Assembly (NCBI GenBank): GCA_903847385.1 | Contig: CAINDO010000565.1 | Coordinates: 1 to 64,000 of the forward strand | Length of the DNA stretch: 64,000 nt | Direction of reading: 5' to 3' | From: an uncultured Myxococcales bacterium | Lineage (GTDB): Bacteria; Myxococcota_A; Bradymonadia; UBA7976; UBA1532 | Shown: one piece after another, positions 19,391 to 57,784 of the stretch | How the letters are laid out: the number at the start of each line of letters is the position of its first letter | How positions within the stretch are numbered: the stretch's first letter is position 1 | Position numbers and translations under genes: made by a program | The notes under the pieces: model-generated | Databases searched by the model: none | Seen by the model: the letters and a program-made list of their open reading frames with translations, nothing else | What the model was told of the DNA's origin: nothing

Positions 19391-19391
19391 T

Positions 19392-19422
19392 CACCGCATC
19401 TTGCCCGCGGCGAAATGCGGTG
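19392..19422. promoter_or_regulatory. Inverted repeat CACCGCAT-N15-ATGCGGTG between divergent genes
   Basis: Perfect 8-bp arms begin one base after the DUF2079 start codon. They overlap a second perfect 10-bp palindrome, GGTGGCCACC, at 19419-19428. Together they fill the middle of the 94-bp region shared by the DUF2079 and M3 peptidase genes. A shared operator or an RNA stem-loop are both possible. Confidence 0.35.
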
Positions 19423-19484
19423 GCCACCGCGCGCTGGATCTGCTACGGCCGCGGCAATCATCGTCCGACCTCTGGAGACGCCCC

Positions 19485-21624: not shown

Positions 21625-24600
21625 ATGTCCGTGAGCCTACCCCCCTTCGACGAGAACGATCCCCCGCCCCCGACCGACGACGCGCCGGTGCCGGCCCCGC
21701 GCAAGAAGCGCAAGTGGCTGCGACGCCTCGTCAAGTGGAGCCTCGGGGGCATCTTCGGCCTCATCGGCCTCGTGCTGCTGCTGCTGATCTTCCTGCCGCT
21801 CGACTGGGCGGTGCACAGCATCGCGCTGCCCAAGGCGCGCGAGATGTTCGATCAGGAGAACATCGAGGTCGGCGACGTCCAGTGGTCGCTGACGGGCGGC
21901 TTCGAGTTCCACGACATCCGCGTGGGGCCGCCGAAGGGCTACACGAAGGACATCCTCACGCTGAAGCGCATGGCCGTTCACTACGACCTCTTCAGCATCG
22001 TGGGCGGCGACTTCCAGCTGCGCGAGGTCTCCCTCGACGCGCCGCACGTGTTCATGGAGCTCAAGGACGGCAAACCCGCCGTCGTGGCCATGCTGGAGAA
22101 GCTGCCCCCGTCCGAGCCCCCGCCCCCCGAGGAGCCCGCCGGCCCGCCGCCCAAGATCAACGTGATCCTCCACAAGATCGCGGTCACGGACTTCCGCGCC
22201 GGCTTCGACGACGGCAACGCCAAGGCCGAGTTCGGCGCCGTGGACGTGGGCATCGACGGCAACTTCAGCTTCGAGAAGAGCCACATTCGCCTGAAAGTGG
22301 GCGTGGGCGGCACGCCGGACGGTCAGCCCAACATCCACGTGAAGCTGGCGCAGCCCAACCCGACGACCGCCGAGCTCGAGATGAAGACGGCGCTCGAGGT
22401 CAACGTGGACATCGGCGCCGAGCTGGACAAGCCGAAGGTCGACATCGACCTGAACCTGTTCATGGTCTCGACGAAGCTGGACGCGCCGGGCCTGGACCTG
22501 CCGCCCATCAAGCTCACCGCCCGCACGACCGCCCAGGCGGACGTGAAGGCCGACACCGCGGGCATCAAGCTCCTGACCGCCGAGTTCAACGGCGAGGAGA
22601 TCCTGCGGATGAAGGCCAACCTCGAGGGCCTGAAGAAGCAGAACATCGTCGCGCAGATCGAGAAGGTCCGCCTCCCGTTCCCCGCCTTCGTACCCTACGT
22701 GCGGCCGTTCCTCCCGCCGGGCAGCAAGTTCGAGCTGTTCGGCGAGGCGGGGCTCGAGAACTTCCTGATCGAGGGCGACGGCGAGAAGCTCGCCGCGGAC
22801 GGCCTGCCGAGCGTGACCGGGCGCCTGTTCGTGCGCGGCTTCGGCGTGGACGTGGACACCACGCAGGCCCCCGCGCCGGGCCCGGACGCGCCCAAGCCCC
22901 TCGTGGTCATCCCGCCCATCGCCGCGTTGGTGAAGGACATCGGCGTCGAGATCGACGTGGGCGTGAACCCCGCGGCCCCGGCGTTGGACGCCGCCGGCCT
23001 GCAGACGGCCTTCACGGCCGGCTTCACCGCCCCGCCCGAGGGTCGGCCGTCGGCGATGCTCAAGGGCACGGTGGGTGTGGGCCTGGTCGATGGCTTCGGC
23101 GCCAAGGTCGAGCGCCTGGCCCTGAACCTGGCCGCCGGCGCCACGCTGAGCGGCCGCGCCCCCACGGACGTCGGCGCCGCGCTGGACCTGCAGATCCCGG
23201 TGATCCAGGCGGACGTGCCCGGCCAGGGCAAGGTCGCGATGTCCTTCGGCACGGCGCTGCAGGCCGGCGGCAACCTGCGCGAGAACAGCTTCTCGCTGGA
23301 CCGGCTGACGGTGAACGTGTCCGACACGATCAAGGTCGGCGTGGACGCCTTCGTGAAGAACATGGGGCAGGGCGGCTTCGCCTTCAACACGCGGGTCGAG
23401 CCCATCTCCATCCCCCGCGCGCTCGGCCTGGCGCCCCCCGGCGCCCGCGCCAAGATGCCCGCCGGCATGGCGCTCGGCGGCAGCGTGGACACGACGATTC
23501 ACGTGTCCGGCGAGCTGCCCCCGCTCGAAGAGCTGAAGACCCTCGGGGGCGATCTGGCCAAGGTCTTCGCGCTCCCGGTGAAGTTCGAGATCACGCAGGG
23601 CTTCAACGGGCTGTCCGTCGGCATGCCCGGCGCGCGCCTGGGCGTGGCCGGGCTGGACGGCGCCGTGCGCGTGTCCGGCACCCCCGCCGACATCCTGATC
23701 GAAGCCCCCGCGAACCGGCCCCTGGGCATCGGGCGCATCAGCAAGGACGACCTGGGGGTGGTCATCAAGAACCTGGCCATCCCGCTGAAGCTGCGCTTCC
23801 AGCCGGGCGTGGCGGGGCAGTCTCTGGAGCTGGACACGGGGCTGCGCATGGCCTTCGAGCCCGGTGGCGCCAAGGGCCCCAAGGCGATGAACCTGCTGGG
23901 TGGCATGACCACCGCGCTGCACGTGCAGGGCCGCCTGCCGGCGCTCGACCGCCTGGGCAGCCTGGGCGGCGACATGGGGCGGCTGTTGGCGCTGCCGGTG
24001 AACTTCGACCTCACGCAGCGGTTCCAGGGCATGTCCGTGGGCATGCCGGCCAAGGGCCTGAAGATCGAGAACCTCAACGGCACCGTGCGGGTCTCCGGGC
24101 GGCCGTCGGACATCACCATCGAGTCGCCCGCGGATGCCGCGCTGGGCATCGGGCGCATCGTGGCCGAGGAGGCCGGCGCCGTGGTCGAGAAGCTCGGCGT
24201 GCCCATGAAGCTGCGGCTGCTGCCCGGCGGCGGCGGCCCCGCGGTGGATGGCCACGCCGGCGTGACCGTGGGCCGCGTGACGCAGAAGGCCAAGGGCGTG
24301 CGCGTCGAGGGCATCGCCGCGAAGCTCACCCCCCAGATCAAGCTCCCCGTGGCCCGCGCGCTCGGCGGCGGCGCCTTCGACATCGAGAAGATCGACGTCG
24401 GCGTGCAGTTCGGCCTCGAGGCCCTGTCGCTGCGGCAGCCGGGCAAGACCATCCGCATCGCCAACAAGGAGAAGGGCGCCCCGGGCACCCGCACCAAGGT
24501 CGTGCAGGACCAGCTCCGGCTGACCTACGACCCGGGCGTGGCCGCGGCGGCGGACGGCAACAAGTACCCCCTCTCCATCGGTCACACGATCAAGCTCGGC

Positions 24601-26283
24601 AACCTGAACATGCGGGAGAGCCGGCTGGACCTGCAGAACCTGGTCGTGGAGCAGCGCATCGACGTCGCCGGCCTGCAGCTCACGGGCCTGAAGCTCTCGC
24701 AGCCCGTGCCCGCCTCGAAGCCGCGCTTCGTGCACTTCACCACCCACCTGGTCCCCAACCGGGACGCGGACGCCGAGGGCACGGACGAGCAGCGCCGACT
24801 CTCCATCAACGTGGGCGGCACGCCCCTCGACCGCGCCATCGCCGAGAACGAGCTGGAGATCGACATCAAGGCGTCGCTCCCCCGGCTGCGCTACCCGCCC
24901 ATCGACTCCGAGGTCTACGCCGAGCTCGACCGCCTCGACGTGAAGCGGCTGGAGTTCTTCAACCACTCCCACGGCGTGCACTTCTCGGCCAACGGCGTGG
25001 TGAAGAACTTCGTGCTCAACGGCACGGCGATGCCGGCGGTCGACCTGTCCATGTTCGCCGGCATCGACCTGCCCGCCGCGCTGGAGAAGGCCCAGGCCAA
25101 ACACATGGTCACCCTGGGCAGCGTCGAGACGCACGACAAGCTGTCCGTCTCCATGGCCGGCAAGGTCGGCGTCGAGGCCCGCGTGCGCAACCTGGACGCC
25201 CAGTCGCTGGAGCTCAAGGGTGTGCTGGTCGGCGAGAACTGCCACATCTGGTCCGAGAAACACGGCCAGGATCCCAGCCTGCCCGACGGCACCCAGCTCT
25301 ACACGGTGCAGAACGTGCACCTGAAGAACCTGACGATGCACTCGCCCATGGTGCAGCGCGTCGACCTGGACATGCTCGCGGCCATCGCCGTGGACAAGAA
25401 CCGCGCCCGCGCGTTCTTCCGCGACGTGACGAAGCTGTGGCCCGCCGCCCGGGACGTCATCGCCGCCGAGCAGAGCCCCCTGCACCACACGATGCAGAGC
25501 TACTCCAACGCGGCGGCCAACGTGACCATCGACGGCGTGGACGTCGACAAAGAGGTCACCTACGTCAAGTCCGGGCGCGTGCTGGAGAAGGCACACAGCC
25601 CGCTGACCGTCGACCGCGTGGCCCTGAACATGGGCTACGAGAACTGGGTCTTCGACATCGAGCGCCTGTACATCCAGATGATGGGCGGCGACATCGGCGG
25701 GCGCGTAGGGCTGCAGCTCAAGGGCCTCGCACCGCCCGACCTGAACCTGGTGATGGAGATGCAGATCGGCGGCATCAACCTGGCCGCCCTGAACCCCCGC
25801 CGCGACGTGAAGAAGAAGTACAGCGCCGCGACGGAGGTGAAGGTCGACGCCGACCTGGCCTTCGGCTGGAAGAACCGCGACGTGGACGGCGGGATCAAGA
25901 TCTCCAAGCTCTCGCTGCGCCAGCTCGACGAGCTCTTGAAGTTCTCCGATCCGGGCGGCCGCAATCAGCAGATCCAGGACCAGCGCACGCTGTTCCAGCG
26001 GGTCTCGTTCCTGAACCCATCGGTCCAGTACGTGAACCTCGAGTTCGAGTACGCGAACATGGACCTCGAGACCAAACTCGACGCCATCCCCGGCGTACGC
26101 GGCGCCCTGAACGCGTACCTGGACGGCATCAAGGTCGAGGGCCTCGACGCACGTCAGGTCGTCGAGAACTTCATCGCCGAGCTGAACTTCATCCCGCCCG
26201 TGCGCGAGCCCCCGGAAATCGGCCCCGCCCCGGACGAGGAAGGCGAGACCGCCGCCGCGGCCGCCGACGGCCCGGCCCCCTGA
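21625..26283 (+). CDS. Large AsmA/YdbH-like intermembrane protein
   Basis: The 1552-residue protein has a Pro/Asp-rich cytoplasmic start, one transmembrane helix at about residues 37-60, and a very long periplasmic part of amphipathic beta-strands. This is the profile of AsmA-like proteins (AsmA, TamB, YhdP, YdbH), which form hydrophobic grooves that carry phospholipids between inner and outer membranes. A block of about 100 residues is duplicated at about 629-730 and 769-870 (both with L-G-G-D, then G-M-P, then V-R-V-S-G, then L-G-I-G-R-I). The next gene is a DUF1318-like lipoprotein. The E. coli ydbH-ynbE-ydbL operon also pairs an AsmA-like protein with a lipoprotein and a DUF1318 protein. 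ATG 21625 follows GAGGACG. Function is inferred from fold and neighbourhood. Confidence 0.82.
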   Translation: MSVSLPPFDENDPPPPTDDAPVPAPRKKRKWLRRLVKWSLGGIFGLIGLVLLLLIFLPLDWAVHSIALPKAREMFDQENIEVGDVQWSLTGGFEFHDIRVGPPKGYTKDILTLKRMAVHYDLFSIVGGDFQLREVSLDAPHVFMELKDGKPAVVAMLEKLPPSEPPPPEEPAGPPPKINVILHKIAVTDFRAGFDDGNAKAEFGAVDVGIDGNFSFEKSHIRLKVGVGGTPDGQPNIHVKLAQPNPTTAELEMKTALEVNVDIGAELDKPKVDIDLNLFMVSTKLDAPGLDLPPIKLTARTTAQADVKADTAGIKLLTAEFNGEEILRMKANLEGLKKQNIVAQIEKVRLPFPAFVPYVRPFLPPGSKFELFGEAGLENFLIEGDGEKLAADGLPSVTGRLFVRGFGVDVDTTQAPAPGPDAPKPLVVIPPIAALVKDIGVEIDVGVNPAAPALDAAGLQTAFTAGFTAPPEGRPSAMLKGTVGVGLVDGFGAKVERLALNLAAGATLSGRAPTDVGAALDLQIPVIQADVPGQGKVAMSFGTALQAGGNLRENSFSLDRLTVNVSDTIKVGVDAFVKNMGQGGFAFNTRVEPISIPRALGLAPPGARAKMPAGMALGGSVDTTIHVSGELPPLEELKTLGGDLAKVFALPVKFEITQGFNGLSVGMPGARLGVAGLDGAVRVSGTPADILIEAPANRPLGIGRISKDDLGVVIKNLAIPLKLRFQPGVAGQSLELDTGLRMAFEPGGAKGPKAMNLLGGMTTALHVQGRLPALDRLGSLGGDMGRLLALPVNFDLTQRFQGMSVGMPAKGLKIENLNGTVRVSGRPSDITIESPADAALGIGRIVAEEAGAVVEKLGVPMKLRLLPGGGGPAVDGHAGVTVGRVTQKAKGVRVEGIAAKLTPQIKLPVARALGGGAFDIEKIDVGVQFGLEALSLRQPGKTIRIANKEKGAPGTRTKVVQDQLRLTYDPGVAAAADGNKYPLSIGHTIKLGNLNMRESRLDLQNLVVEQRIDVAGLQLTGLKLSQPVPASKPRFVHFTTHLVPNRDADAEGTDEQRRLSINVGGTPLDRAIAENELEIDIKASLPRLRYPPIDSEVYAELDRLDVKRLEFFNHSHGVHFSANGVVKNFVLNGTAMPAVDLSMFAGIDLPAALEKAQAKHMVTLGSVETHDKLSVSMAGKVGVEARVRNLDAQSLELKGVLVGENCHIWSEKHGQDPSLPDGTQLYTVQNVHLKNLTMHSPMVQRVDLDMLAAIAVDKNRARAFFRDVTKLWPAARDVIAAEQSPLHHTMQSYSNAAANVTIDGVDVDKEVTYVKSGRVLEKAHSPLTVDRVALNMGYENWVFDIERLYIQMMGGDIGGRVGLQLKGLAPPDLNLVMEMQIGGINLAALNPRRDVKKKYSAATEVKVDADLAFGWKNRDVDGGIKISKLSLRQLDELLKFSDPGGRNQQIQDQRTLFQRVSFLNPSVQYVNLEFEYANMDLETKLDAIPGVRGALNAYLDGIKVEGLDARQVVENFIAELNFIPPVREPPEIGPAPDEEGETAAAAADGPAP

Positions 26284-26315
26284 ACCCCCCGAGAACACTC
26301 GAGAACAGGTGACGT

Positions 26316-26924
26316 ATGAACGCCTGGAAGCCCCTGCTCCCCGCCCTCTTCGGTCTGGTCGCCGCCCTCGTGGCGCCCGGCTGCGTGAGCGTCCGCCCCA
26401 AGGTCGTGTCCGAGAAGACGCAGCTGGAAAACCAGATCCTGGGCAACTTCGACAAGCTGGAGAACGACCTCATCCTGGCGTCGTCCGTGCGCAGCATGGG
26501 CGCGCCCGGCACGGAGCTGAGCCCGGCCCATCGCGAGGCGCTCATCGCCGTGATGAACCGGCAGTTCCGCCGCGACGACGTCGAGGAGCTCAAGGGCAAG
26601 AAGATCGCCGGTGAGAGCCTGCAGGGCACGCTCGCGCTGCGCGACACGCCCGAGCTGAAGGAGAACGCCCAGCTCAAGCTCCAGGCCACCAAAGTGATCG
26701 CCGAGGAGAACCGCGATCGCGACGTGATCATGAAGCGCGTGCTGGACATGTACTCGGGCCTCGGCCCGGAGGACCTGCCCGAGGTGCGCAAGATGATGCA
26801 CGAGCTCGCGGTCACCCAGAGCCTGCCCGGGACCCCCATCGAGGACCCGGACCAGGGCTGGATCGAGAAGCCCGATCCCAAGCTCGACGAGGCCCGCCGG
26901 CAGGCCGAAGCGGAGGCCGAGTAA
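26316..26924 (+). CDS. DUF1318 (YdbL)-like lipoprotein
   Basis: The 202-residue protein has a signal peptide ending in lipobox Cys23 (V-A-P-G-C), then an alpha-helical mature part. The segment from about residue 92, with G-E-S-L-Q-G-T-L-A-L and then A-E-E-N-R-D-R-D-V-I-M, resembles DUF1318, the family of E. coli YdbL. YdbL acts beside the AsmA-like protein YdbH and the lipoprotein YnbE. Here a single lipoprotein may combine the outer-membrane anchor and the DUF1318 part. It lies 32 bp after the AsmA-like gene and 6 bp before the CHAT giant gene. The family match is from remembered patterns and should be confirmed by profile search. Confidence 0.7.
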   Translation: MNAWKPLLPALFGLVAALVAPGCVSVRPKVVSEKTQLENQILGNFDKLENDLILASSVRSMGAPGTELSPAHREALIAVMNRQFRRDDVEELKGKKIAGESLQGTLALRDTPELKENAQLKLQATKVIAEENRDRDVIMKRVLDMYSGLGPEDLPEVRKMMHELAVTQSLPGTPIEDPDQGWIEKPDPKLDEARRQAEAEAE

Positions 26925-26930
26925 GGGCCC

Positions 26931-29900
26931 ATGCGAAAACCCGCCCGCACATCGGCCTGGCTCTCCGCCCTGGCGCTCGTGACCGCAGCGGGTTGCGCCA
27001 GCCGCCCGCGCGGAGGCGGACCGCCGGCCCCAGAGCTCATCCTCCCGGCGTTTCGCGCGCCGGCCCCCGCCGCCGCCCCCGTCGCCCCCACGACGCTCAC
27101 GGGTTTCACCGATCACGAGGTCTACGGCCGCCTGAGCCCCTCGGGCGAGATGCTGGCCTACAGCGTCGACGCCGCGGACGACTTCGACATCTGGATGCGC
27201 AGCCTGCGCACGGGCGAGCGCACGCAGATCAGCACCCACCCGGCCATGGACACCATGCCGGTCTGGTCGCCGGACGGCGAGTCGCTGGTCTTCGTCTCCA
27301 TGCGCGACGACGTGAAGGGCGACCTGTACCTGTGGAAGGGCGACCTGGACGAGGACCGCGAGTCCAGCGAGCAGCTCACGGGCCGCAAGCTCGGCGAGCT
27401 GTTCCCGGTGTTCTCGCCGGACGGCCGCTTCGTCTACTTCGCGCAGGGCCCCGAGGGTCAGTACCGCATCGCCCGCCTGGACCTCTCGAAGGTCGAGGAC
27501 AAGAAGGACCGCGACGACCCCGTCGCCGAGACCGTGGTCACGGAGTGGGGCTACTCGCACCCGGCGGTGTCGCCGGACGGCTCGCTCCTGGCGGTCACGC
27601 GCTTCAAGAACGGTGAGCCGGCCCAGGTCGCGGTGATCCCCATCGACGATCCCAAGGGCACGCCCAAGTACGGCAAGCCGCGCATCGTCACCCTGGGGCC
27701 GTACAGCAAGGGCTTCCCGACGTTCAGCCCGGACGGAAAGACCTTGTATTTCATGGTCTTCCACCACGGCGCGCCGGCGCAGACGGTCACCGGCGACGCC
27801 GAGGGCTCCATCTGGAGCATGCCGACGGAGGCCCTGAAGACGGCCACGCCCGCGGACCTGATGGCCCAATCGCGGCAGCTCACGCCCGATCGCGCCGTGT
27901 CCATCCTGAGCCAGGCCCACGAATCGGGTCTGGTCTACAGCGGCCTGCGCGGCAACAACTTCGACGTCTTCCTGATGCCGGCCGAGGGCCTGCTGCCTCG
28001 CGCGGCGACCGTCGCGGCGCAGATCGCGCTCGCCGACAGCTACGAGGACACCTACGGCAAGGCCTTCGCCCTCAAGGGCCTCGCGGCGTTCCCGCCGACC
28101 CCCGAGAGCCAGCGCGGGCTGTACGAGGCGCTGGAGCTCTACGCCGACGCCGGCGAGTTCGAGAAGGCCGCCGAGATCGGCGAGATCCTGGCCGCCCAGA
28201 GCGGCGGCGGACCGCTGACGGACGTCGGTCGCTGCCGGGCGGCGTCGGCCTACGCCGAAGCGCTGAAGGCCCGCGAGGCCGAGTCCGGCGTGATCTTCGA
28301 GGAGGCCGACGCCCGCGCCGCGCTCGAGCGCGTGCAGGCCGCCGGCGAGGCCGCCCGCTCCCCGGAGGGCAAGGCGCAGTGCCGCGTGCAGGCCGGCGAG
28401 GTCCACTTGCTGGCGGGCGACTGGCAGGCGGCGGCGGCGGCGTTCCGCGGCGTGCTCGCCGAGCGGGACGCCACCCCGGCGCAGGCGGCCGCGGCCTACC
28501 TGGGCCAGGGGCGCGTGCTCGCGCGCATGCCCGGCGGCGGCGAGAGCGGCGCCGAGTACTTCCTGGGCACCTGGGACCGCTGGCCCGGCGAGACGCGCGC
28601 CCACCTGCGGGCCACCCGCGAGGCCCTGCGCGTCGTGGCCGCCGCGTCGCCGGATCCGGCGCTCGAGATCGAGACGCTGCGGTTCCTGATCGACCGCCAC
28701 GCGAAGAAGTCCGCCTTCGCGGCCAAGGCCCAGTACCGCATGGGCGAGCTCTACGCGGTCTCGGGCCAGAACGCCCTGGCGGCGCAGGCGATGGAGACCC
28801 TGCTCGACCGCTGGCCGAACGCCCAGCCCGAGGCCACGCGCGCCGGCTTCAAGGCCGGCCAGTTCGCGGCCTCGCTGGCCGCCGAGCTGCGGGCGCAGGG
28901 CCGGTTCAACGAGGCCAGCGCCTACTACGACCGCGCGCTGACCAGCTACGCCGCGGTGATGAAGGCCCACCCGCCGCTCAACCCGCTCCACCGCGAGGCG
29001 CGGTCGCACACGGTCGCGCTCTCGCTCCAGCGGGCTTTCCAGGCCGAGCAGGACGGCGACACCGAGAAGGCCCACGGCCTCTACACCCGCCTGCTCGAGT
29101 TCGAGCCCGAGGCCGTCGCCGCGCTGCGCAAGGTCATCCAGCACGACCTCAACCAGGGCGTGCCGCCGCCCCCCAACGACGGCATGGACGCCGCCGGCGT
29201 CAAGGCGCGCCGCGAGGAGATCCAGGACAAACTCGAAGCGAACTGGAAGGCCCTGCGCGACGACTTCGAAGGGCGCCTCGAGGAGAACGAGGGCGACTTC
29301 GGGGCCATGTACGGCCTGGGCTACCTGTGGACCTACGACCCGGACCTGCGCCTGAAGAGCCTGGACGAGGCCGAGGAGTACCTCGAGGCCGCGGCGGACC
29401 TGCGCCCGGAGAGCCCGTTCCCGCACATGACCCTGGGCTGGGTCAACCTGATGCGCGAGCAGTACTTCGACAAGGTCAAGGACGCCTTCGTCATCCAGGC
29501 CCTGGACCAGTACATGATCGCCGACGGCCTGAACGACCGCGGCATCGACCTGCAGACCGAGGCCGACCTGCTGGTGAGCCACGGCAACGCCTGGGCCGCC
29601 CTGGGCAACGGCTGGGCCTACGCCTACGAGAAGTACCAGGCCCGCGAGGCCCTGGTGGCGCTGGGCGCGGGGTTCACCAACCCCGAACAGAAGGCGATGT
29701 TCTATTTCAACTTCGCCCAGGCCGCCTACATGACGGACCACTTCCGCGAGGCCGAGGACCACTACGAGACCGCGCGGGCCATCGTGCACGCCCGCGCCGC
29801 GATGGTGGATCCCATCCTGGCGGACGGCTACCGCGAGATGGACGCGCAGATCATCGCCCACCTGGCCCTCGTGAATCACTTCATGGGGGACTACGAGGCG

Positions 29901-32900
29901 TCCAACCGCTACTTCGACCAGACCATCAAGCTCTACACGACGCGGGGCAAGACGCACCTGCTGTCGGCCCTGACGCGCTCGGTGGCCTACAACCTGATCC
30001 TGATGGGCGAGTACGGCGAGGCCATCGCCAAGCTCGAAGAGGCGCGCGTGCTCTACGGTCAGCACGGCGGCATGAAGAGCGAGGAGAGCACGCGCATCGC
30101 GCTGACGCCCGAGGGGTCGCTGTTCTTCGGCGGCTTCGCCGGCGACGCCGAGCGGCACGTGCAGACGGCCCTCGCCGACCTGATCTACCGGGACAACCAC
30201 GCGCTCTGGTACGCGTCGCAGCAGGCGGCCCGGCAGCTCGAGCAGCGCGAGGACCTCTACAAAGAGAACGAGAACCCGGACTTCGCGCGGGCCATGTGGA
30301 TCCTCAAGGGGCGCGTGGCCGCCTCGGCGCTGAAGGCGGGGGACCGGGCCACCTTCGCGCGGGAGCTCGACGCGATCTTCGACGACGCCGTCGAGCTTCA
30401 GTGGGACGACGCGCAGGCCGACGGCGAGGAGTTCCAGGGCCGCCCCGAGCTCTTCGTGTTCATGGCCACGGCCATGGTCAACCGCGCCGAGCAGATGCTC
30501 GCCGATCTCGCCGTGGGGCGCCGCCTGGAGCCCGACGAGCTGTCGACGCTGGCCAAGCGCCTGCGCAAGATGGAGGACTGGCGGCAGCGCATCGAGGTCA
30601 CCAACGGCGGCAACCTGATCGCCGACGAGGAGCTCCGCCTCAAGTACCTGAACGCCACGGCGCTGCTGTTCCTGAACTACGGCCGCTCGCTGGCCGCGGA
30701 CACCGGCCCGGCGGCCTCGGGCGAGGGCAAGAAGAAGACCGGCTGGGGCACCTACTCTCTCTCCGGCAAGTTCGACGCCTGGATGCTGCAGGCGAGCTTC
30801 TTCTCGGACGCGGCGGGGCTGCTGCTGCAGGCGGTCACCCGCACGGCGCCGGAGCCCGGACCCTCGGCCCGCCCTGCGCCGGATCTGGGCCGGACCTTCA
30901 TCGTCGACCGGCTGCGGTGGCACGTCGAGAGCCTGATGAACCTGGCCGAGGTGGCCTCGTACTTCACGGCGCCCGATGCCCTGACGACGGATCGCGGCAT
31001 GGCCTACCTCGAGCAGGCGCGGCGCATCTGCAACGTGCAGGAGGCCCTCGCCCGCAACGAGGAGCGCGCCGCGGCCGCCGCCGCCGCCGCACAGGCCCAG
31101 CCCGAGCCGGAGCCCGAGACGGACGAGGCCCCCGAGGCGCCCCCGGCCCCGCCGACGGCGGCGCTCGGTGACGTCGAGGAGACGCCCATCCCCGTGGTGC
31201 TCGACCTCGGCGAGGCCTGCCCCCTGCTCGACATGGAGTTCGCCAGCCGCAAGAACGACCTGGAAGCCGCCCGCGCCGCCGTGAACGCGCTGCCGCCGGC
31301 CGGGTTCCTGGGCGAGCGCTACCGCACCCACGGCGCCACCGTGCGCCACCGGATGTTCGGGCGGGCGCGCGAGGTGGCCCTGCGCGTCGGCGACATGCGC
31401 GCCGTGCTCGACTTCGCCGAGGATGAAGACCGCCGGATGGTCGCGGACGAGCTCGCGGCGTTCGGTTACGTGTCGCCCTCGGGCCCGCTGCAGGCGGCGC
31501 TCGACCCGATCCGGCAGTGGTACGCCTTCTACCAGCGCGCCTGGGCCAACCAGACCATCGAGCCCAAGGGGCGCGAGACCCACGAGGCCGCGCTGGCCGC
31601 CATGGCGCGCGCCCGGAACGACGGACTGTGGCGCGACCTCTTCGCCGCCGTGGACCGCCAGAGCGCCGCCGTCGCCGATCTCATCTTCGGCACGCGCGTC
31701 GCCGACCAGGGGCTGGCCGAGGCGCTCGGCGACAAGGCCTCCATCGTGTCCGCCGTGGTCGTCGGGCAGGAGGTCGTGTTCTTCAACCTCCGCCGCGATG
31801 GCGACCGGCTGGCCGTCAAACACGCGCTCGCCAAGGGGCGCCTCCCGGCGATCCGCGAGGCGGCGTTCTACGGTGAGCAGAACCTGCCCGCCCTGCTGGC
31901 GCTCCTGCCGGACGTCGTCGGCAAGTGGGTGGCCAGCGACAAGACCGTGTACTTCGACCTGCTGCGCCTGGGCGCGGAGTTCCCCGTGGACGCCGTGGCG
32001 GCGCGGTGGGCGCCGGACGCGCTCCCCGTGCACCTGGCCGGGGTGCTGGAGCTCGGCGACGCCTTCCGCGCGCGCAACCTGTACGTGACGGACGGCCTGG
32101 TGCTCTCGTCCGACGCCGTGGAGGGCAACGCCTTCCCCCGCGCCGACATCGAGCGGACGGTCTCCGGCCTCGAGGGCTGGCGGGTGCTGGAAGAAGAGAA
32201 GCTGAGCCTGACGCGCACCGCCGGCCACATGATCCAGTCGGGCATGCAGCTCTGGACGCTGCCGCTGCGCGTGGAGGAGGACTCCCTGGCCAACGTGCGC
32301 CTCGGCCTCAAGGGTGAGGTCCGCGGCCTGGAGGACTACCGGTTCCCGCTGCGGCTCGGCGACCGGCTCAAGACGAGCTTCGTGGCGGCGGTGGGCGTGA
32401 ACGATGGCCTGCGCGGCCGCGACGGCCTGGTGATGACCACCCGCTACCTGCACGCGCTGGGCGTGCCGACCATCGCGCTGGCGCCCCAGGGGAACCTGAC
32501 GTCCGAGGCGATGACGAAGTGGTTCGGCGAGCTGGCCCGCCGCCTCGGCAAGGAGAGCGCGGGTGATGCGTTCCACCGGGTCCCGGTGCCCGCCGCCCGA
32601 GTGCCCCTGCGCAAGGGCGAGACGGACGAGGACCCGGAGGGCCGCGACATCGAGCGCTTCGACCGGGTGCGGCTGTACGGCTCGCCCGGGCTCTCCCCGA
32701 GCGACGCCGGCGTGGCCGGGCTCGAGGCCGAGCGCATGTTCACCGCCGGCAAGGCCGCCTGGGACGTGGCGCAGTACCGCGTCACGGCGACCAACCTGGA
32801 GCCGGCGCTGGCCCTGTGGCGCGCCGCCGGCGACACCGACAGCGCCAAGGTGATCGAGGCCCAGGAGATCCTGGCCCGTGCGCACTTCAACCTGGGGGAC

Positions 32901-35819
32901 ACCCGCAGCGCCGTGATCACGCAGCTCTCCACCGTGGAGAAGCTGGAGAAGACCGGCCAGCCGATGACGCGGGTCTACGACGCCTGGCTGCGGGTGCCCG
33001 AGTGGCAGACGGCCGGCGGACGCGGGGCGGACGCGATCGAGTCCGTCGCCGCGATCAAGGCCCGCCTGGACAAGGACCTGCCCGCCGCACGCGGGGCGGA
33101 CGCCGCGGCCCTCACGGGCTTCTCGGCGGCGGCCTGGGGGATCGAGGCGATGGGCCTGGAGTCGCTCCACAAGTACCCCGAGGCCGTGCAGGGCTACGAG
33201 AAGGCCGCCGAGCTGGCCAAGAAGAGCCTGTCCGAGGGCGGCGACGCGGCGGCGCAGGCCCGGCGCATCGCGGAGTTCTCGGCGCTGGGCGCCCGGGTGG
33301 CGCGCCTGCACCTGTCGGACTCGGCGCGGGCCAAGCGCGGCCTGACGCTCGCCCTGGGCGCCATGCCCAAGGTCGATCGGGCCGAGTACACCGGCCTGGA
33401 GGCGACCTACGCCGAGTACGTGAAGCGGCTGGCGGACGCCCCGGGCGACGAGGAGGTCGCGCTCTACTCGAAGGGTGTGCACGACCACACCGTGCAGCTC
33501 ACCGAGAAGCGGCAGGACGTCCACGCCGCCGCGGTGGTGCTCCGTGAGCTGGCCTACGTGAAGCTCAGCCGCGCCGACGCGGCCGGCGCCGCGGTGGACG
33601 CCGAGCAGGCGCTCGCGCTCTCCACGCCGCTCGCCGATCAGTCGCTGGCCCACAGCTGCCGCATCGTGCTCTCCATGGCCCGCCTGGAGCTGGGGGACGC
33701 CGTGGACGCCCTGGCGCTCGCCGACGCCGGCCTGAAGGTCTCGCACCTGCTGCCCCAGTGGCACGCGCGCTTCCACGCGGCCCGGGGCCGGGCGCTCACC
33801 CACCTCGGCCGGCTGGACGAGGCCCGCACCGCGCTCACCGAGGGCGTGCGGCTCGCCCGCGAGTCCCGGGACGACGAGGGGTACGCCGACACGCTGCGCG
33901 ACCTCGGCCGCCTGGAGCTCGAGGCCGGGAACCCCGGCAAGGCGGCGACGCAGTTCCGCAGCGCCGAGCTCGAGGACCGCGAGAAGGGCGATCCCGTGCG
34001 GATCGCCGACGACCTGGTCAACGCCGGCAAGGTGCTGCGCGTGATGGCGCGGTACGACGACGCCCGCGACCGTTTGAAAGAGGCCCGCGAGCTGGCCAAA
34101 CCCGCGGATGCCTGGGAGGTCCTGGTGCGGGTCGGTCTGGAGAGCGGGCGCGTGCTCGCCGCCCAGGACGACCACGAGGGCGCGCTGGCGGCCTTCCGCG
34201 CGGGCCTGGACGCCGAGCAGCACCTGAGCCTGCCCGGCGTGCGCTGGATGCTGCAGCTCGGCGAGGCGACGGCCCTGGCCGCGCTGCACCGGGAGGCGGA
34301 CGCCGAGAAGGCGCTGCTCGAGGCGGCGAGCGCCGTGGAGTTGCTGCCCGCGCGGCCGCGGCGGGCGCCGGGTGCTGCGCGGATCGACTTCGAGTTCAAG
34401 GACGTCTACGACCAGCTCGTGAAGCTCTACGCCACGCAGAACCGGGCCGCCGACGCCTTCGACGCGGCCGAGCGGTGGCGCAGCCGCGGCTTCGTGGACA
34501 TGACCGCCCGGAGCGCGGGTGTGTTCAAGCGCGGCAAGGACGCCGTCGCGCGGTACACCGAGCGCCTCAGCGCGCTGCGCGAGGCCGAGGCCGAGGCCGG
34601 TGAGGCCGCCCCGGACGACCGGGCCCGGGCCCGCAAGGCCGCCGACGCCGCCCGGACCGCCGCTGACGAGGCCCGCCGCGCGCTCGCCGCCGTGGACGCG
34701 CAGCTCCCGGCCTACTTCGCCGTGGACACGGAGCCCTTCGCCACGCTGCAGAAGCGCATCCCCGCGCAGACCACGCTGCTGACCTACTACACCGCGCCCT
34801 GGGGCGCCGTGGCCTTCGTGGCCGACGCGCAGGGCCTGAGCCTGCACACGCTGGCCACGGACGCCGCCGCCCTGACCACGGAGATCCGGAACTACCGGCG
34901 ACACACGGCCGCCTTCGACGCCCTCGAGGTCGACTCGAAGCGGCTGTTCGACGCGCTGCTCGGCCCGGTGCAGGACAAGCTGGCCGCCCGGGTGCTCGTG
35001 GTGCCCGAGGGGCCCCTGAACGTGCTGCCCTTCGCCGGCCTCTGGACGGGCAAGGGCTGGGCGGTGGAGCGCTGGAACATCGCGTACCTGCCCTCGGCCA
35101 GTCACCTGCGTACGCTCACGGCGCTCGGCGCCCAGAGCCCCCGCGCGCCGATGGCCTTCAACTGGGCGGGCATGGGTCCGGACACCGAGCCGAAGGCCGG
35201 GACCAAGAAGTACTTCCGGCGCCTCGAGGAGTGGCGCGGCCTGCGGACGCAATGGCCGCACCTGCCCTTCACCGAGAAGGAGACCTCGGCGTTCAAGGAG
35301 AGTTTCCCCGCGGCCACCGTCTTCGCCGGCCGCGAGGCCACCCGCGAGGCGTTCCTGGAGAAGGCGGGCAAGGCCGACCTGCTCGAGATCGCCGCGCACG
35401 CGGTCTACGTGCCCGAGAACCCCATGCTGAGCTACCTGCAGTTCGGCGGCATCCCCGCGGGCGACCTTTTCCCGGCCTTCGCCGAGCAGCGGGTCACGCT
35501 GTACGACATCCTGGGCCTGGACCTGAGCGCCGCGGTGGCCACGCTCTCGGCCTGCGAGACCGGCCTGGCCGATCCCGAGGGCGGCGACGGCCTGGCGGGC
35601 ATGCACCGCGCGTTCCTCACGGCCGGCGCCAAGAGTGTCGTGTCGAGCCTTTGGCGCGTGTCGGACCTGACCTCGGGTGTCCTGATGAAGAACTTCCACC
35701 GCAACTTGAAGACGCACGACCCGGCGACGGCCCTGCGGGACGCGCAGCTCAAGGTGATGAAGTACTTCCCGCACCCGGCCTACTGGGCGGGCTTCCGGCT
35801 GGACGGCGTGGGCCGCTGA
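26931..35819 (+). CDS. Giant lipoprotein: TolB-like propeller, TPR array and CHAT protease domain
   Basis: The 2962-residue protein starts with a signal peptide and lipobox Cys22 (T-A-A-G-C). Residues about 55-360 contain PD40/TolB-type blades (S-P-D-G-E-S-L-V-F, F-S-P-D-G-R-F-V-Y). From about 360 to 2590 it is mostly helical, with many TPR-like pairs, plus an acidic/Ala-rich low-complexity spacer near 1385-1410. Residues about 2600-2960 form a CHAT domain, a caspase-fold peptidase: catalytic His2823 in I-A-A-H-A-V and Cys2875 in L-S-A-C-E-T-G, with S-L-W-R-V-S-D after it. It starts only 6 bp after the DUF1318-like lipoprotein. An outer-membrane-anchored surveillance or processing protease for the lipid-transport machine is one reading; the substrate is unknown. 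Confidence 0.85.
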   Translation: MRKPARTSAWLSALALVTAAGCASRPRGGGPPAPELILPAFRAPAPAAAPVAPTTLTGFTDHEVYGRLSPSGEMLAYSVDAADDFDIWMRSLRTGERTQISTHPAMDTMPVWSPDGESLVFVSMRDDVKGDLYLWKGDLDEDRESSEQLTGRKLGELFPVFSPDGRFVYFAQGPEGQYRIARLDLSKVEDKKDRDDPVAETVVTEWGYSHPAVSPDGSLLAVTRFKNGEPAQVAVIPIDDPKGTPKYGKPRIVTLGPYSKGFPTFSPDGKTLYFMVFHHGAPAQTVTGDAEGSIWSMPTEALKTATPADLMAQSRQLTPDRAVSILSQAHESGLVYSGLRGNNFDVFLMPAEGLLPRAATVAAQIALADSYEDTYGKAFALKGLAAFPPTPESQRGLYEALELYADAGEFEKAAEIGEILAAQSGGGPLTDVGRCRAASAYAEALKAREAESGVIFEEADARAALERVQAAGEAARSPEGKAQCRVQAGEVHLLAGDWQAAAAAFRGVLAERDATPAQAAAAYLGQGRVLARMPGGGESGAEYFLGTWDRWPGETRAHLRATREALRVVAAASPDPALEIETLRFLIDRHAKKSAFAAKAQYRMGELYAVSGQNALAAQAMETLLDRWPNAQPEATRAGFKAGQFAASLAAELRAQGRFNEASAYYDRALTSYAAVMKAHPPLNPLHREARSHTVALSLQRAFQAEQDGDTEKAHGLYTRLLEFEPEAVAALRKVIQHDLNQGVPPPPNDGMDAAGVKARREEIQDKLEANWKALRDDFEGRLEENEGDFGAMYGLGYLWTYDPDLRLKSLDEAEEYLEAAADLRPESPFPHMTLGWVNLMREQYFDKVKDAFVIQALDQYMIADGLNDRGIDLQTEADLLVSHGNAWAALGNGWAYAYEKYQAREALVALGAGFTNPEQKAMFYFNFAQAAYMTDHFREAEDHYETARAIVHARAAMVDPILADGYREMDAQIIAHLALVNHFMGDYEASNRYFDQTIKLYTTRGKTHLLSALTRSVAYNLILMGEYGEAIAKLEEARVLYGQHGGMKSEESTRIALTPEGSLFFGGFAGDAERHVQTALADLIYRDNHALWYASQQAARQLEQREDLYKENENPDFARAMWILKGRVAASALKAGDRATFARELDAIFDDAVELQWDDAQADGEEFQGRPELFVFMATAMVNRAEQMLADLAVGRRLEPDELSTLAKRLRKMEDWRQRIEVTNGGNLIADEELRLKYLNATALLFLNYGRSLAADTGPAASGEGKKKTGWGTYSLSGKFDAWMLQASFFSDAAGLLLQAVTRTAPEPGPSARPAPDLGRTFIVDRLRWHVESLMNLAEVASYFTAPDALTTDRGMAYLEQARRICNVQEALARNEERAAAAAAAAQAQPEPEPETDEAPEAPPAPPTAALGDVEETPIPVVLDLGEACPLLDMEFASRKNDLEAARAAVNALPPAGFLGERYRTHGATVRHRMFGRAREVALRVGDMRAVLDFAEDEDRRMVADELAAFGYVSPSGPLQAALDPIRQWYAFYQRAWANQTIEPKGRETHEAALAAMARARNDGLWRDLFAAVDRQSAAVADLIFGTRVADQGLAEALGDKASIVSAVVVGQEVVFFNLRRDGDRLAVKHALAKGRLPAIREAAFYGEQNLPALLALLPDVVGKWVASDKTVYFDLLRLGAEFPVDAVAARWAPDALPVHLAGVLELGDAFRARNLYVTDGLVLSSDAVEGNAFPRADIERTVSGLEGWRVLEEEKLSLTRTAGHMIQSGMQLWTLPLRVEEDSLANVRLGLKGEVRGLEDYRFPLRLGDRLKTSFVAAVGVNDGLRGRDGLVMTTRYLHALGVPTIALAPQGNLTSEAMTKWFGELARRLGKESAGDAFHRVPVPAARVPLRKGETDEDPEGRDIERFDRVRLYGSPGLSPSDAGVAGLEAERMFTAGKAAWDVAQYRVTATNLEPALALWRAAGDTDSAKVIEAQEILARAHFNLGDTRSAVITQLSTVEKLEKTGQPMTRVYDAWLRVPEWQTAGGRGADAIESVAAIKARLDKDLPAARGADAAALTGFSAAAWGIEAMGLESLHKYPEAVQGYEKAAELAKKSLSEGGDAAAQARRIAEFSALGARVARLHLSDSARAKRGLTLALGAMPKVDRAEYTGLEATYAEYVKRLADAPGDEEVALYSKGVHDHTVQLTEKRQDVHAAAVVLRELAYVKLSRADAAGAAVDAEQALALSTPLADQSLAHSCRIVLSMARLELGDAVDALALADAGLKVSHLLPQWHARFHAARGRALTHLGRLDEARTALTEGVRLARESRDDEGYADTLRDLGRLELEAGNPGKAATQFRSAELEDREKGDPVRIADDLVNAGKVLRVMARYDDARDRLKEARELAKPADAWEVLVRVGLESGRVLAAQDDHEGALAAFRAGLDAEQHLSLPGVRWMLQLGEATALAALHREADAEKALLEAASAVELLPARPRRAPGAARIDFEFKDVYDQLVKLYATQNRAADAFDAAERWRSRGFVDMTARSAGVFKRGKDAVARYTERLSALREAEAEAGEAAPDDRARARKAADAARTAADEARRALAAVDAQLPAYFAVDTEPFATLQKRIPAQTTLLTYYTAPWGAVAFVADAQGLSLHTLATDAAALTTEIRNYRRHTAAFDALEVDSKRLFDALLGPVQDKLAARVLVVPEGPLNVLPFAGLWTGKGWAVERWNIAYLPSASHLRTLTALGAQSPRAPMAFNWAGMGPDTEPKAGTKKYFRRLEEWRGLRTQWPHLPFTEKETSAFKESFPAATVFAGREATREAFLEKAGKADLLEIAAHAVYVPENPMLSYLQFGGIPAGDLFPAFAEQRVTLYDILGLDLSAAVATLSACETGLADPEGGDGLAGMHRAFLTAGAKSVVSSLWRVSDLTSGVLMKNFHRNLKTHDPATALRDAQLKVMKYFPHPAYWAGFRLDGVGR

Positions 35820-35852
35820 GCCCGGGACTATCCCCGGACGCGGCCGTCGACG

Positions 35853-35858
35853 TAGGGT
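35853..35858 (+). promoter_or_regulatory. -10 box placed for a near-leaderless transcript
   Basis: TAGGGT ends 6 bases before the ATG at 35865, the same placement seen before the genes at 17126 and 57820. A purine run (AGGG) in between could alternatively serve as a weak ribosome site, so this case is ambiguous. Confidence 0.3.
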
Positions 35859-35864
35859 AGGGCC

Positions 35865-37058
35865 ATGCTTGGCCTCGCCCGTACCGCGCCCCTCGTCGCC
35901 GCCGCCCTGCTCGGTCTGTCGGCGTGCGACGCCGCCTCGTCGGACCCGGCCGCGGACGCCTCGACCGCGCCGGACGCTGCGGCGCAACGCCCGGACCGCG
36001 TGTGCGAGCCCCCGCCCCCGCGGGATGCCCAGCCTGCGTCGGACGCCCGACCGGCGACCCCGGACGCCCGACCGCCGACGCCGGACGCGGCGACGACCCC
36101 CGACGCCGTGCTCTCCGACGCCGTGCTCTCCGACGCCGTGCTCTCCGACGCCGCGCCCCCCGCCGACGCCGCCGCCGTCGAGGCCGACTGCCCCGCGCTC
36201 GCCGACGCCGCGATCGGGCCGGACGTGGCCGCCGCCGACGCCGCCCTGCCCCGCGTCTGGAACGTGCGGCGCCTGTTCTCCGACGCCGACGGCCTCTCCG
36301 CGCCGGACGGCCTGCACCGCATGGCCGACGGCCGCGTGCTGGTGGCCAACCAGGTCACGGGCGACCTGCAGGTCATCGACCCCGTGGCCAACACCGTGTC
36401 GCTGTTCTTCGAGCACTTTCCCGGGCTCTCCAAACCCGAGGAGACGGCCGACGGCCCCGGCGGCGTGGTCTACGTGTCGGACAACGTGTCGCGCGCGGTG
36501 CACCGCCTGAACCCGGACGGCACCCACGAGACGGTCCTGCGCCCGGCGGACGGCCTGGTCGAGCCCAAGGGCCTGGCCGTACGGCCGGACGGCACGCTGG
36601 TGGTGGCCGACGAAGGGGGCAGCCGCATCGTGGAGTACCCCGCCGGCGCCGAGCCCGTGGTGCTCGTGGACGCGGACACGGGCGCGTCGAGCCCCGAGAG
36701 CCTCCAGCTCGCCGCGGACGGCACGCTCTACTGCACGGACGACCACGCGGGCGGGGTGTTGCGCATCGCGCCGGACCGCACCGTGTCTCAGTTCCTGACG
36801 CCCCAGCAGGTGCGCTGGGCGGACGCCGTGAGCCTCGCCCCCAATGGCGAGCTCTGGTTCAGCGAGGCCAACCCGAACACCGGCCCGCGGCTTTTGCACT
36901 ACAACGCCGCGGGCGATCTGCTGGACACCATCCCCGTGCCCGGCCCCGGTCGCATGCTCGGCGTCGCGGCGCTGGCGGACGGCCGCGTGCTCACGGCCTT
37001 CTACCAGGCGCCCTACATCGCCAGCGAGATCTGGGTGGCCGAGCCGCCGGCGCCCTGA
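35865..37058 (+). CDS. SMP-30/NHL-type beta-propeller lipoprotein with DA linker
   Basis: The 397-residue protein has lipobox Cys21 (L-S-A-C), a linker of about 95 residues built from D-A-x-x-x units, and a six-bladed propeller. The blades carry SMP-30/gluconolaconase- and NHL-like phrases (G-L-A-V-R-P-D-G-T-L-V-V-A-D; L-Q-L-A-A-D-G-T-L-Y; V-S-L-A-P-N-G-E-L-W-F). Such propellers bind or hydrolyse lactones or sugars, but metal ligands cannot be assigned with certainty. The linker includes a perfect 15-bp triplication. It is 45 bp downstream of the CHAT gene and may have its own start, and it converges on the interrupted lipoprotein gene 7 bp away. Confidence 0.75.
   Translation: MLGLARTAPLVAAALLGLSACDAASSDPAADASTAPDAAAQRPDRVCEPPPPRDAQPASDARPATPDARPPTPDAATTPDAVLSDAVLSDAVLSDAAPPADAAAVEADCPALADAAIGPDVAAADAALPRVWNVRRLFSDADGLSAPDGLHRMADGRVLVANQVTGDLQVIDPVANTVSLFFEHFPGLSKPEETADGPGGVVYVSDNVSRAVHRLNPDGTHETVLRPADGLVEPKGLAVRPDGTLVVADEGGSRIVEYPAGAEPVVLVDADTGASSPESLQLAADGTLYCTDDHAGGVLRIAPDRTVSQFLTPQQVRWADAVSLAPNGELWFSEANPNTGPRLLHYNAAGDLLDTIPVPGPGRMLGVAALADGRVLTAFYQAPYIASEIWVAEPPAP
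36101..36145 (+). repeat. 15-bp perfect tandem repeat, three copies, in a lipoprotein linker
   Basis: The unit CGACGCCGTGCTCTC occurs three times head to tail, encoding repeated D-A-V-L-S in the linker of the propeller lipoprotein. As the unit is five codons long, gain or loss of copies would change linker length without breaking the frame. Confidence 0.9.
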
Positions 37059-38403: not shown

Positions 38404-40755
38404 TCAGGCGCGTCGGGCCAGGAACCGCAGCACGTCCACGATGAACACCGGCTTGCCCACGGGGTCGATCGTGACGCCGAGCAGGCCGTCGATGCGCTCG
38501 AGCAGCGGGCCGAGGGGCTTCATCACGGCGTCCTGTTGGCCGACCACGCGGTCGACGGCGAGCACGAACTGGCCCTCCTCGCCGTGGCAGACCACGCCGG
38601 GGAACGCGGCCTCGGGGCGGTCACCCGCCTCGGCCCCGGGCAGGCCCAGCAGGTGTCGCAGCGGGAAGAGGCGCAGGCGCGAGCCCTGGTGATCGACGAG
38701 GGTCATGCCCCGCTCCTCGGTCCGGGCCGCGGGTTCGAACATCTCGGTGTTGAGGACGCGGGCGAGCGGCAGGCCGAACACCTGGTCGTCCGCCTCCACG
38801 AGCAGCAGCTTGCTGATGCCCGGCGTGCGCGGGAGCCGGAGCCGAATGGTGGTGCCGACGCCGGCCTCGCTCTGCATCTCCAGCGTGCCGCCCAGGCCGC
38901 TGACCATCTCGCGCACGGCGTCCAGGCCCACGCCGCGGCCGGCGTTCTCGCCCGGCTCGTCCCGACTGGTCAGCCCGGGCAGGCACATCAGCCGCGCCAG
39001 ATCCCGCTCGGCGAGCTGTTCGGCCCGACCGCGCGTCAGCAGGCCCATCTCCACGGCCCGGTTGGCCAGCTTCTCGCGGTCCACGCCGCCGCCGTCGTCG
39101 GAGACCTCGACCACGATCTCGTCGCGCACGCGGGTGCACATCAGCTGAATCGTCCCGCCCGGCCGCTTGCCCCGCGCCTCCCGAATCTCGGGCAGCTCGA
39201 TGCCGTGTTCCACCGCGTTCGAGAGCAGGTGGGTCAGCGGGGCGTCCAGGCCCTCGATGATGGCGCGGTCCAGGTGCTGATCGTCCCCGCGCGTCACCAG
39301 CACGGCGCGTTTGCCCGAGCGGCGGGCCATGTCGCGCACCGCGCGGGGCAGGCGCACGGTCAGCACGGAGAGGGGCGTCATGCGCACGGAGAGCGCGTCC
39401 TGGTGCAGGGCGCTGAGCACCCGCGAGAGCTCCGAGAGCGCCTCGGTCATCACCGGATCCGGGCTGTTCTGGTTCCGGTTCCACAGGCGCTGCGCGATGA
39501 TCAGCAGGTCGCCCGTGCGGTTGAGCACGGCGTCCAGCCAGTCGGTGCGCACGCGCACGGAGCGGGCGGCCCGCGGCGCGCGCACGATGGCGGCCTCGGC
39601 CACGCCGGGGGACTCGTCCGGCTCGGGGGCCAGCGCCGGATCGCGGCCCAGGGCGGCCAGATCCGGAGCCTCGAAGGGGGGCAGCGTGGGCGTGTGGGTG
39701 GGGGTCGGCAGCGAGAGCACGCCGGACGGCCGCTCCTCGCGGGGGGCCTCGCGGATCGTGTCGCCGAGCAGGTCCTCGAAGTCGAACTCGCTGAAACCGG
39801 CCGGGTGCGGGGTGGCGCTCGGCCGCGAGAAGCCGTTGCGGTCCCCGCTGTCCGACTCGGCGATGGACACCGGCGGCTGCTCGCCGAAGTCCTCGGAGAA
39901 CAACAGCATGGGCTCGTCCGCAACGGGCGGCGACACCTCGGGGGGGAGCGTCGGCGGGTCGACGTGTTCGACCGCGTGCTGGGCCTTCGGCGGGTCCTCG
40001 CGGCGCACGTGGACCTGTCGGAGGTCGGGCACCAGGCTCAGGTAACCCTCGATCTGCGACACGTCCAGGCTGCTCGTCAGCACGATCTGCACGGGGCCGT
40101 CCAGGCGGCCCTGGCGCAGCTCCGAGGGGTCCGGCCGGGCCGCGCGGATGCGACCCAGGTCGCCGAGCTTCTTGTGCAGCAGGAAACCGCGCAGGCCGGG
40201 ATCCGGCACGCCGGGGTCCATCTCGGCGGTGATCACGATGTCGCCGGGCTCCACGGCCAGGCCGGTCGTGGGCGGGGCGGCCGGCGGCGACGAGGGCACC
40301 GGCGAGAGCGTGTCCGGCAGGCGCCGGCCCGAGGTCGGGGGCGGCGGGGCGACCGGCGCCTCCAGGCGGCCCTCCAGCATCTCCTGAATCCGCCGGTGCA
40401 GCGTGGTCGCGGCCACGTCGTTGCGCAGGGGGAGCTGCTCGGCCTCCACGTCCGTCAGCCACTGCCCGATGCGGTCCGCGCCGGCCAGGATCACGTCGAT
40501 GGCGGCGGTGTGCATGGGCACCTGGAGCCGCCGGAAGCGGTCCATCAGGTCTTCCAGGTGGTGGGCCAGCTCGAACACGGGCGTGTAGCCCATGGTGCCG
40601 CTCATGCCCTTGATCGAGTGCACCAGCCGAAAGACCGTGTCGATGGCGCGCCGATCGTTCGGTTTCGTCTCGAGTTCGACCAGGAGCTGGGAGATCTTCT
40701 CCAGGTTCTCCTGCGTCTCGCTCACATAGAGCTGCCGATATTTGGAGAGGTCCAT
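38404..40755 (-). CDS. cheA: CheA-family chemotaxis histidine kinase
   Basis: The 783-residue kinase has the full CheA order. P1 HPt carries phospho-acceptor His46 in V-H-S-I-K-G. A P2-like regulator-binding domain lies at about residues 170-255 (F-L-L-H-K-K-L-G-D-L-G). A long Pro/Asp-rich linker leads to P3 dimerisation from about 398 (R-T-D-W-L-D-A-V-L-N-R-T-G-D-L). P4 ATPase has an N box near 511 (L-S-N-A-V-E-H-G-I), then D-D-G-G-G-V-D and G-R-G-V-G-L-D. A P5 CheW-like domain starts near 645. Its ATG overlaps the stop of the CheW gene (ATGA). The cluster order is MCP, CheW, CheA, with no CheR, CheB or CheY nearby, so the response regulator is encoded elsewhere. Confidence 0.93.
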   Translation of the reverse strand: MDLSKYRQLYVSETQENLEKISQLLVELETKPNDRRAIDTVFRLVHSIKGMSGTMGYTPVFELAHHLEDLMDRFRRLQVPMHTAAIDVILAGADRIGQWLTDVEAEQLPLRNDVAATTLHRRIQEMLEGRLEAPVAPPPPTSGRRLPDTLSPVPSSPPAAPPTTGLAVEPGDIVITAEMDPGVPDPGLRGFLLHKKLGDLGRIRAARPDPSELRQGRLDGPVQIVLTSSLDVSQIEGYLSLVPDLRQVHVRREDPPKAQHAVEHVDPPTLPPEVSPPVADEPMLLFSEDFGEQPPVSIAESDSGDRNGFSRPSATPHPAGFSEFDFEDLLGDTIREAPREERPSGVLSLPTPTHTPTLPPFEAPDLAALGRDPALAPEPDESPGVAEAAIVRAPRAARSVRVRTDWLDAVLNRTGDLLIIAQRLWNRNQNSPDPVMTEALSELSRVLSALHQDALSVRMTPLSVLTVRLPRAVRDMARRSGKRAVLVTRGDDQHLDRAIIEGLDAPLTHLLSNAVEHGIELPEIREARGKRPGGTIQLMCTRVRDEIVVEVSDDGGGVDREKLANRAVEMGLLTRGRAEQLAERDLARLMCLPGLTSRDEPGENAGRGVGLDAVREMVSGLGGTLEMQSEAGVGTTIRLRLPRTPGISKLLLVEADDQVFGLPLARVLNTEMFEPAARTEERGMTLVDHQGSRLRLFPLRHLLGLPGAEAGDRPEAAFPGVVCHGEEGQFVLAVDRVVGQQDAVMKPLGPLLERIDGLLGVTIDPVGKPVFIVDVLRFLARRA

Positions 40756-41213
40756 CAAAAGGCCTCTTCGATGGCGTCGATGACCCGCTGCAGGTCCAGA
40801 TGCTGAAACGACAGCTCCGGCGTGCTCAGGGCCTCGGTGATCCAGCTCGCCTGGGCCAGGAACTGCTTGATCTGACCCACCTGGACGGCGTCGCGCGCCT
40901 CGACGATGGCCACCTCGCACACACACAGCGCCAGGTTCAGGTCCGCCCGGTCGATGATCACGGCGACGGCGGGCGGCGCCGGGTCGCTGAGCTCCAGGAA
41001 CCGCCCCAGGTCCACGAGCGTGAGCAGGCGGCCCTGGTGGTTCATCACGCCGCAGACCCAGCGCGGGGCCCAGGGCACCCGCGCCACGGCGGTCATGGGG
41101 AGCACCTCGGTGACCTGCGACACGTCGAAGCCGCAGCGCACGGGGTCCTCGGCGGGGGTGGCGCCGCGGCGGTCCGTGGGCCCGAAGGCGGTGACGAGGA
41201 AGCGTTCGCGCAC
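40755..41213 (-). CDS. cheW: CheW-like coupling protein
   Basis: The 152-residue protein is a single CheW domain. It has the R-C-G-F-D-V-S-Q-V-T-E-V-L start, the V-C-G-V-M-N-H-Q-G-R-L-L-T-L-V-D-L core motif (the usual G-x-x-N-x-R-G-x-x-x-P-V-x-D-L region), and paired C-terminal strands. It should link the chemoreceptor encoded just upstream to the CheA kinase just downstream. The overlap with cheA is 1 bp (ATGA), and the gap from the receptor gene is 11 bp. Family identity is clear; the gene symbol is used in the generic sense because the genome may hold several chemosensory systems. Confidence 0.85.
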   Translation of the reverse strand: MRERFLVTAFGPTDRRGATPAEDPVRCGFDVSQVTEVLPMTAVARVPWAPRWVCGVMNHQGRLLTLVDLGRFLELSDPAPPAVAVIIDRADLNLALCVCEVAIVEARDAVQVGQIKQFLAQASWITEALSTPELSFQHLDLQRVIDAIEEAF

Positions 41214-57706: not shown

Positions 57707-57784
57707 ACGATCCCCCGAAAGACACGACCTGTCTGTAGTCGGCATACGCCGCGCGCCGCTCCAGTCTGACGCCGGCGAGGGAGA

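Follow-up and report, generated by a model that had tools for sequence, protein, structure and literature searches.

In Escherichia coli, ydbH is followed by ynbE and then directly by ydbL, clustering the genes for a large AsmA-type protein, a lipoprotein and a DUF1318 protein, with YnbE and YdbH together forming an intermembrane phospholipid bridge. The roles that YdbH, TamB and YhdP have in outer-membrane lipid homeostasis are redundant (PMC8593681). C-terminal protease domains are found in TPR-CHAT (Csx29) of type III-E CRISPR (Craspase), in which TPRs precede a CHAT domain with a His/Cys dyad, and in separase, a large helical protein of clan CD with a C-terminal caspase-like domain. Gingipain, also of clan CD, contains two caspase-like copies, one of which is inactive (subdomains A and B, PMC4626109). 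Partners keep known CHAT and separase enzymes inactive until a signal frees them (PMC9729208). Features of both the bridge and the protease systems occur in three consecutive genes of an uncultured Myxococcales bacterium, whose 9.5 Mb draft genome (G000) contains 12 CHAT loci. The genes were analysed in a window of 64,000 nucleotides. Closest to the host is the metagenome-assembled genome JAKLJY010000040.1 (G001), also of Myxococcota.

The AsmA-like and DUF1318 genes compared with ydbH-ynbE-ydbL

The first gene (21625-26283, + strand) encodes an AsmA/DUF748-like, putative bridge protein of 1552 residues with an N-terminal membrane helix, which matches Pfam DUF748 in its N-terminal part (E 1e-9, below the curated cut-off) and is 65% identical to its orthologue in G001. 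AsmA was matched above the Pfam cut-off in three related loci, and one other AsmA match, a weak one, was found in G000. The second gene (26316-26924, + strand), 32 bp further on, encodes a DUF1318 (YdbL-like) lipoprotein of 202 residues (Pfam DUF1318 E 0.002, below cut-off), in which the lipobox Cys23, G99-E100 and N132/D134/R135 are invariant across six family members. Alignment with E. coli YdbL (hhalign; prob 87, E 4e-6) covered 85 columns, pairing YdbL up to its next-to-last residue with the C-terminal half of the window protein. This match lends support to the lipid-transport label given to these genes in the preliminary description, with lipid transport itself a putative function.

Like the E. 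coli cluster, the window thus groups a large AsmA-type protein with a lipoprotein and a DUF1318 protein, but here the DUF1318 protein is itself the lipoprotein and no separate YnbE was found, the comparison with YnbE giving a prob of only 6.7, across the signal peptide and lipobox. The window also adds a propeller/TPR (CHAT) protein, and its AsmA-like protein could not be aligned to YdbH by profile (no match, prob 2). Since the AsmA-like protein is unlike YdbH by profile, the module may work like YdbH-YnbE-YdbL but is not classed as a member of that system.

Domain architecture of the giant protein

The third gene (26931-35819, + strand) starts 6 bp past the end of the DUF1318 gene at 26924 and has 2962 open codons with a third-position GC of 0.97, as in a real gene, in agreement with the reading frame and spacing first reported. 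An antisense ORF of 3581 codons (26154-36899) was discarded as a mirror of the GC-rich gene. The product is a propeller-TPR-pseudoCHAT-TPR-CHAT protein of 2962 residues, 61% identical over its whole length to the G001 orthologue. A signal peptide with a lipobox at Cys22 (TAAGC; 26931-26996) was read by eye, and a lipobox-like cysteine is also present in the giant-form relatives in G001, G058, G059, G064, G336 and G381; as a predicted lipoprotein, the giant protein is probably membrane-anchored.

The signal is followed by a TolB-like beta propeller (residues about 56-380, 27096-28070), which had been proposed at the outset and is borne out by PD40 repeats in Pfam (E 3.6e-24) and by TolB structures matched by residues 56-214 in a PDB search. 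The PD40-type propeller is common to TolB and the giant protein but is here one domain of a giant lipoprotein, and the NCBIfam TolB equivalog was not matched (score 82, cut-off 343). Designed 'Pizza' propellers also appeared among the PDB matches, but these were traced to a short segment around LPFAxL and discarded. Beyond the propeller lie a helical/TPR-like stretch A (residues about 381-1600, 28071-31730; weak TPR matches, approximate boundaries) and a TPR stretch B (residues about 1930-2620, 32718-34790), with a Pfam TPR_12 match at 2285-2345. Pfam detects few TPRs in the window copy, while the G058 relative has 10 TPR_12 stretches along the whole protein. TPRs are thus present, as described previously, but do not run on as one array over more than 2000 residues, since residues about 1601-1927 (31731-32711) are probably a degenerate second CHAT domain that had been overlooked (profile match prob 92, E 5e-7).

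Sliding a profile comparison along the protein revealed exactly two CHAT-like segments, at about 1640-1900 (prob 92) and at the C terminus (prob 100), with column shuffles reaching at most 0.2. The inner match fell to prob 58 when G058 was left out of the profile and was lost with the G000/G001 pair alone. Likewise, Pfam gave no CHAT match to the window inner copy by itself; the G058 inner copy matched Pfam CHAT alone at E 4.4e-4, below cut-off. As the window inner copy is too diverged for a match of its own, its identity rests on the orthologues. In the alignment the catalytic His and Cys are both replaced in all six inner copies, the former by Pro, Arg or another residue and the latter by Val, Leu, Thr or Pro, with the G336 copy retaining LSAP where active CHATs have LSAC. 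By analogy with gingipain, the dead CHAT may inhibit the live CHAT or present substrate to it, although the giant protein differs from separase and gingipain in being a bacterial lipoprotein with its two copies about 740 residues apart.

The C-terminal CHAT domain (residues 2669-2959, 34935-35807) is matched by Pfam at E 3.1e-52 (PF12770, 178 bits against a curated cut-off of 24), and alignment places its catalytic His2823 and Cys2875 at codons 35397-35399 and 35553-35555. The intact dyad and its numbering were correctly described before, and both residues are invariant in 5/5 members with a visible C terminus, the others being 39-75% identical to the window copy. On these grounds the domain would be expected to be an active protease. 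AlphaFold models of the inner and outer CHAT regions, computed with two sequences as input, had pLDDT values of 39 and 47, with 39 for the C-terminal domain. It is doubtful that the CHAT part is structural, with catalysis of little importance and each copy acting as a fold module or a platform for binding within a long scaffold in the periplasm. Such a role would allow one copy to be dead already and 14 genomes to retain the module with no CHAT domain found (see below), but five divergent C termini all have the His and Cys amid residues that vary, and the dead copy shows that these residues are lost when they are not needed.

Solved relatives of the CHAT domain found by PDB search include Craspase TPR-CHAT chains, which would fit a conflict or cell-death device of the TPR-CHAT/Csx29 kind, with the propeller and TPRs detecting an invader at the envelope and the CHAT domain cutting a death effector. 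The giant protein differs from Csx29 in its export signal, propeller and second, dead CHAT, is about four times as long, is in no CRISPR context that could be seen, and does not match the NCBIfam Csx29 model (18.6 against a cut-off of 300). Moreover, PADLOC returned no match for the three proteins, no conserved effector gene adjoins them, and the giant gene is inherited with the AsmA/DUF1318 pair and not with defence genes, making a conflict device quite improbable.

The preliminary description regarded an envelope CHAT protein as unusual in itself, a view weakened by a reading of 22 other CHAT ORFs (21 from the same bacterial family and one from a Bacteroidota relative), of which at least 10 show export signals by eye, three of these being lipoprotein-like. 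A literature search found nothing linking 'CHAT domain' to Myxococcota and no description of a CHAT protein that is exported and also has a dead second copy.

Several further CHAT loci were recorded alongside. TPR-CHAT proteins with Sec or lipoprotein signals are common in the same bacterial family, with examples at L109, L112, L113, L119, L120, L121, L126 and L020; at L109 (G010:C442) a single contig has three consecutive CHAT genes, all with export signals as read by eye. A single genome, G012, has 31 CHAT matches.

Conservation of gene order and the two forms of the partner

The CHAT end as query led to relatives in G058 and G059, and the AsmA-like protein to relatives in G059, G064 and G336. 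The order AsmA - DUF1318 - giant propeller/TPR protein is identical in G059, G064 and G336. In G058 a CoA-transferase-like ORF separates the DUF1318 and CHAT genes and there is no AsmA gene on the same contig. A six-sequence DUF1318 profile searched against 379 Myxococcota genomes matched 20, six strongly (the giant form) and 14 weakly, and all 14 weak matches have a propeller/TPR homologue directly downstream (E 1e-34 to 7e-73). Two more giant forms came from a further draw of genomes, a full-length protein in G381 and one in G383 within which the contig ends. The DUF1318 and propeller/TPR pair is thus present in 22 Myxococcota genomes (8 giant, 14 short), counts taken from draws of genomes of which many are fragmented. 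An AsmA-like gene lies upstream in 7/8 giant loci (homologues being 5′ of DUF1318 in G059, G064, G336, G381 and G383), and a gene of AsmA/DUF748 type does so in 7/7 short loci run through Pfam.

The adjacency of AsmA-like, DUF1318 and CHAT genes first noted in one genome is therefore conserved across several Myxococcota families, and the refuting condition set at the outset, adjacency in this genome alone, does not hold. Sequences of roughly 23-46% identity still share the order, with none of the flanks retained, and since the flanking genes are not common beyond the genus the trio can be taken as a unit. It is very unlikely that the three are chance or hitch-hiking neighbours with no functional link; such neighbours would suit the absence of the trio from most Myxococcota sampled, but not an order maintained across families at this divergence with every flank changed. 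No conserved substrate gene was found downstream of the giant gene.

Upstream of the AsmA gene lies an M3-family oligopeptidase, probably a lipoprotein (19284-21575, + strand; internal start, LLAACGG), kept in G001 but not in other families; being common to the genus only, it was discarded as a part of the module. A DUF2079 membrane protein is encoded at 18080-19390 (- strand), and its G001 counterpart is in the same place and about 62-64% identical. Elsewhere, the window encodes a CheA-type histidine kinase (Hpt, HATPase, CheW; 38404-40926, - strand) and a 2438-residue protein with eight carboxypeptidase-regulatory-like domain stretches (50429-57745, - strand).

The short partner is a putatively secreted propeller/TPR protein of about 1150-1220 residues. 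Most short proteins have by eye a Sec-type signal peptide without a lipobox, in contrast to the lipobox-like cysteine of the giant ones, and no CHAT domain was found in the 14 short-form genomes within the DNA fetched. In a maximum-likelihood tree of the common N-terminal part, which predates the addition of G381 and G383, one branch with 100/100 support parts six giant from 14 short proteins; as the tree is unrooted, both gain and loss of CHAT in one branch are possible. At two short-form loci a small lipoprotein gene with a weak cytochrome cbb3-type match directly follows the propeller/TPR gene (L089:6254-6757, - strand; L094:12721-13212, + strand).

With no CHAT found at 14 short-form loci in which the module is kept, the constant core is AsmA - DUF1318 - propeller/TPR, which suggests that the partnership with a lipid bridge is the core and that the protease is an addition in one branch. 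This bears on the idea, raised as a quality-control protease in the preliminary description, that the enzyme has a housekeeping role in constitutively trimming proteins of the bridge or of the outer membrane. Gene spacing of 32 and 6 bp, as in an operon, and the co-inheritance of the AsmA, DUF1318 and CHAT genes are in keeping with that role, but trimming would not be a general need of the bridge when no CHAT domain was found in 14 genomes that retain the module. As such, quality control is weakened as the purpose of the module, and housekeeping maturation is unlikely.

A proposed bridge module with a possible tethered protease

The findings are explained most simply by a bridge module whose propeller/TPR partner carries a tethered protease in one branch. 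In its fuller form, to which a probability of roughly 0.4 is given, this would be a module of the envelope with an AsmA-type bridge as its basis, the partner in one branch being a tethered, normally inhibited caspase-type protease. The AsmA-like protein would be anchored in the inner membrane and cross the periplasm, moving lipid in a groove, with the DUF1318 lipoprotein as its partner at the outer-membrane end, a job that in E. coli would be shared by YnbE and YdbL. The propeller/TPR protein would contact the bridge as a second partner or as a sensor. In one branch this partner would be an outer-membrane lipoprotein with the arrangement TPR - dead CHAT - TPR - live CHAT, and the tethered protease would cut an envelope protein upon disturbance of the bridge or the outer membrane. 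Several points count against the bridge-module explanation: the window AsmA and DUF1318 proteins fall below Pfam cut-offs, YdbH is unmatched, G058 is an exception and no conserved substrate gene was found downstream. A more specific proposal, that of a protease-gated lipid bridge in which a self-inhibited protease, with inactive and active CHAT in one chain, reads the AsmA-type bridge and cuts an envelope target when it fails, is speculative and rather unlikely.

The trio bears on the regulation of AsmA-type bridges and on their partners outside Proteobacteria. Within Myxococcota, the occurrence of the same partner with and without a protease tail offers a natural comparison, in which the short form would reveal the core function and the giant form the contribution of the protease.
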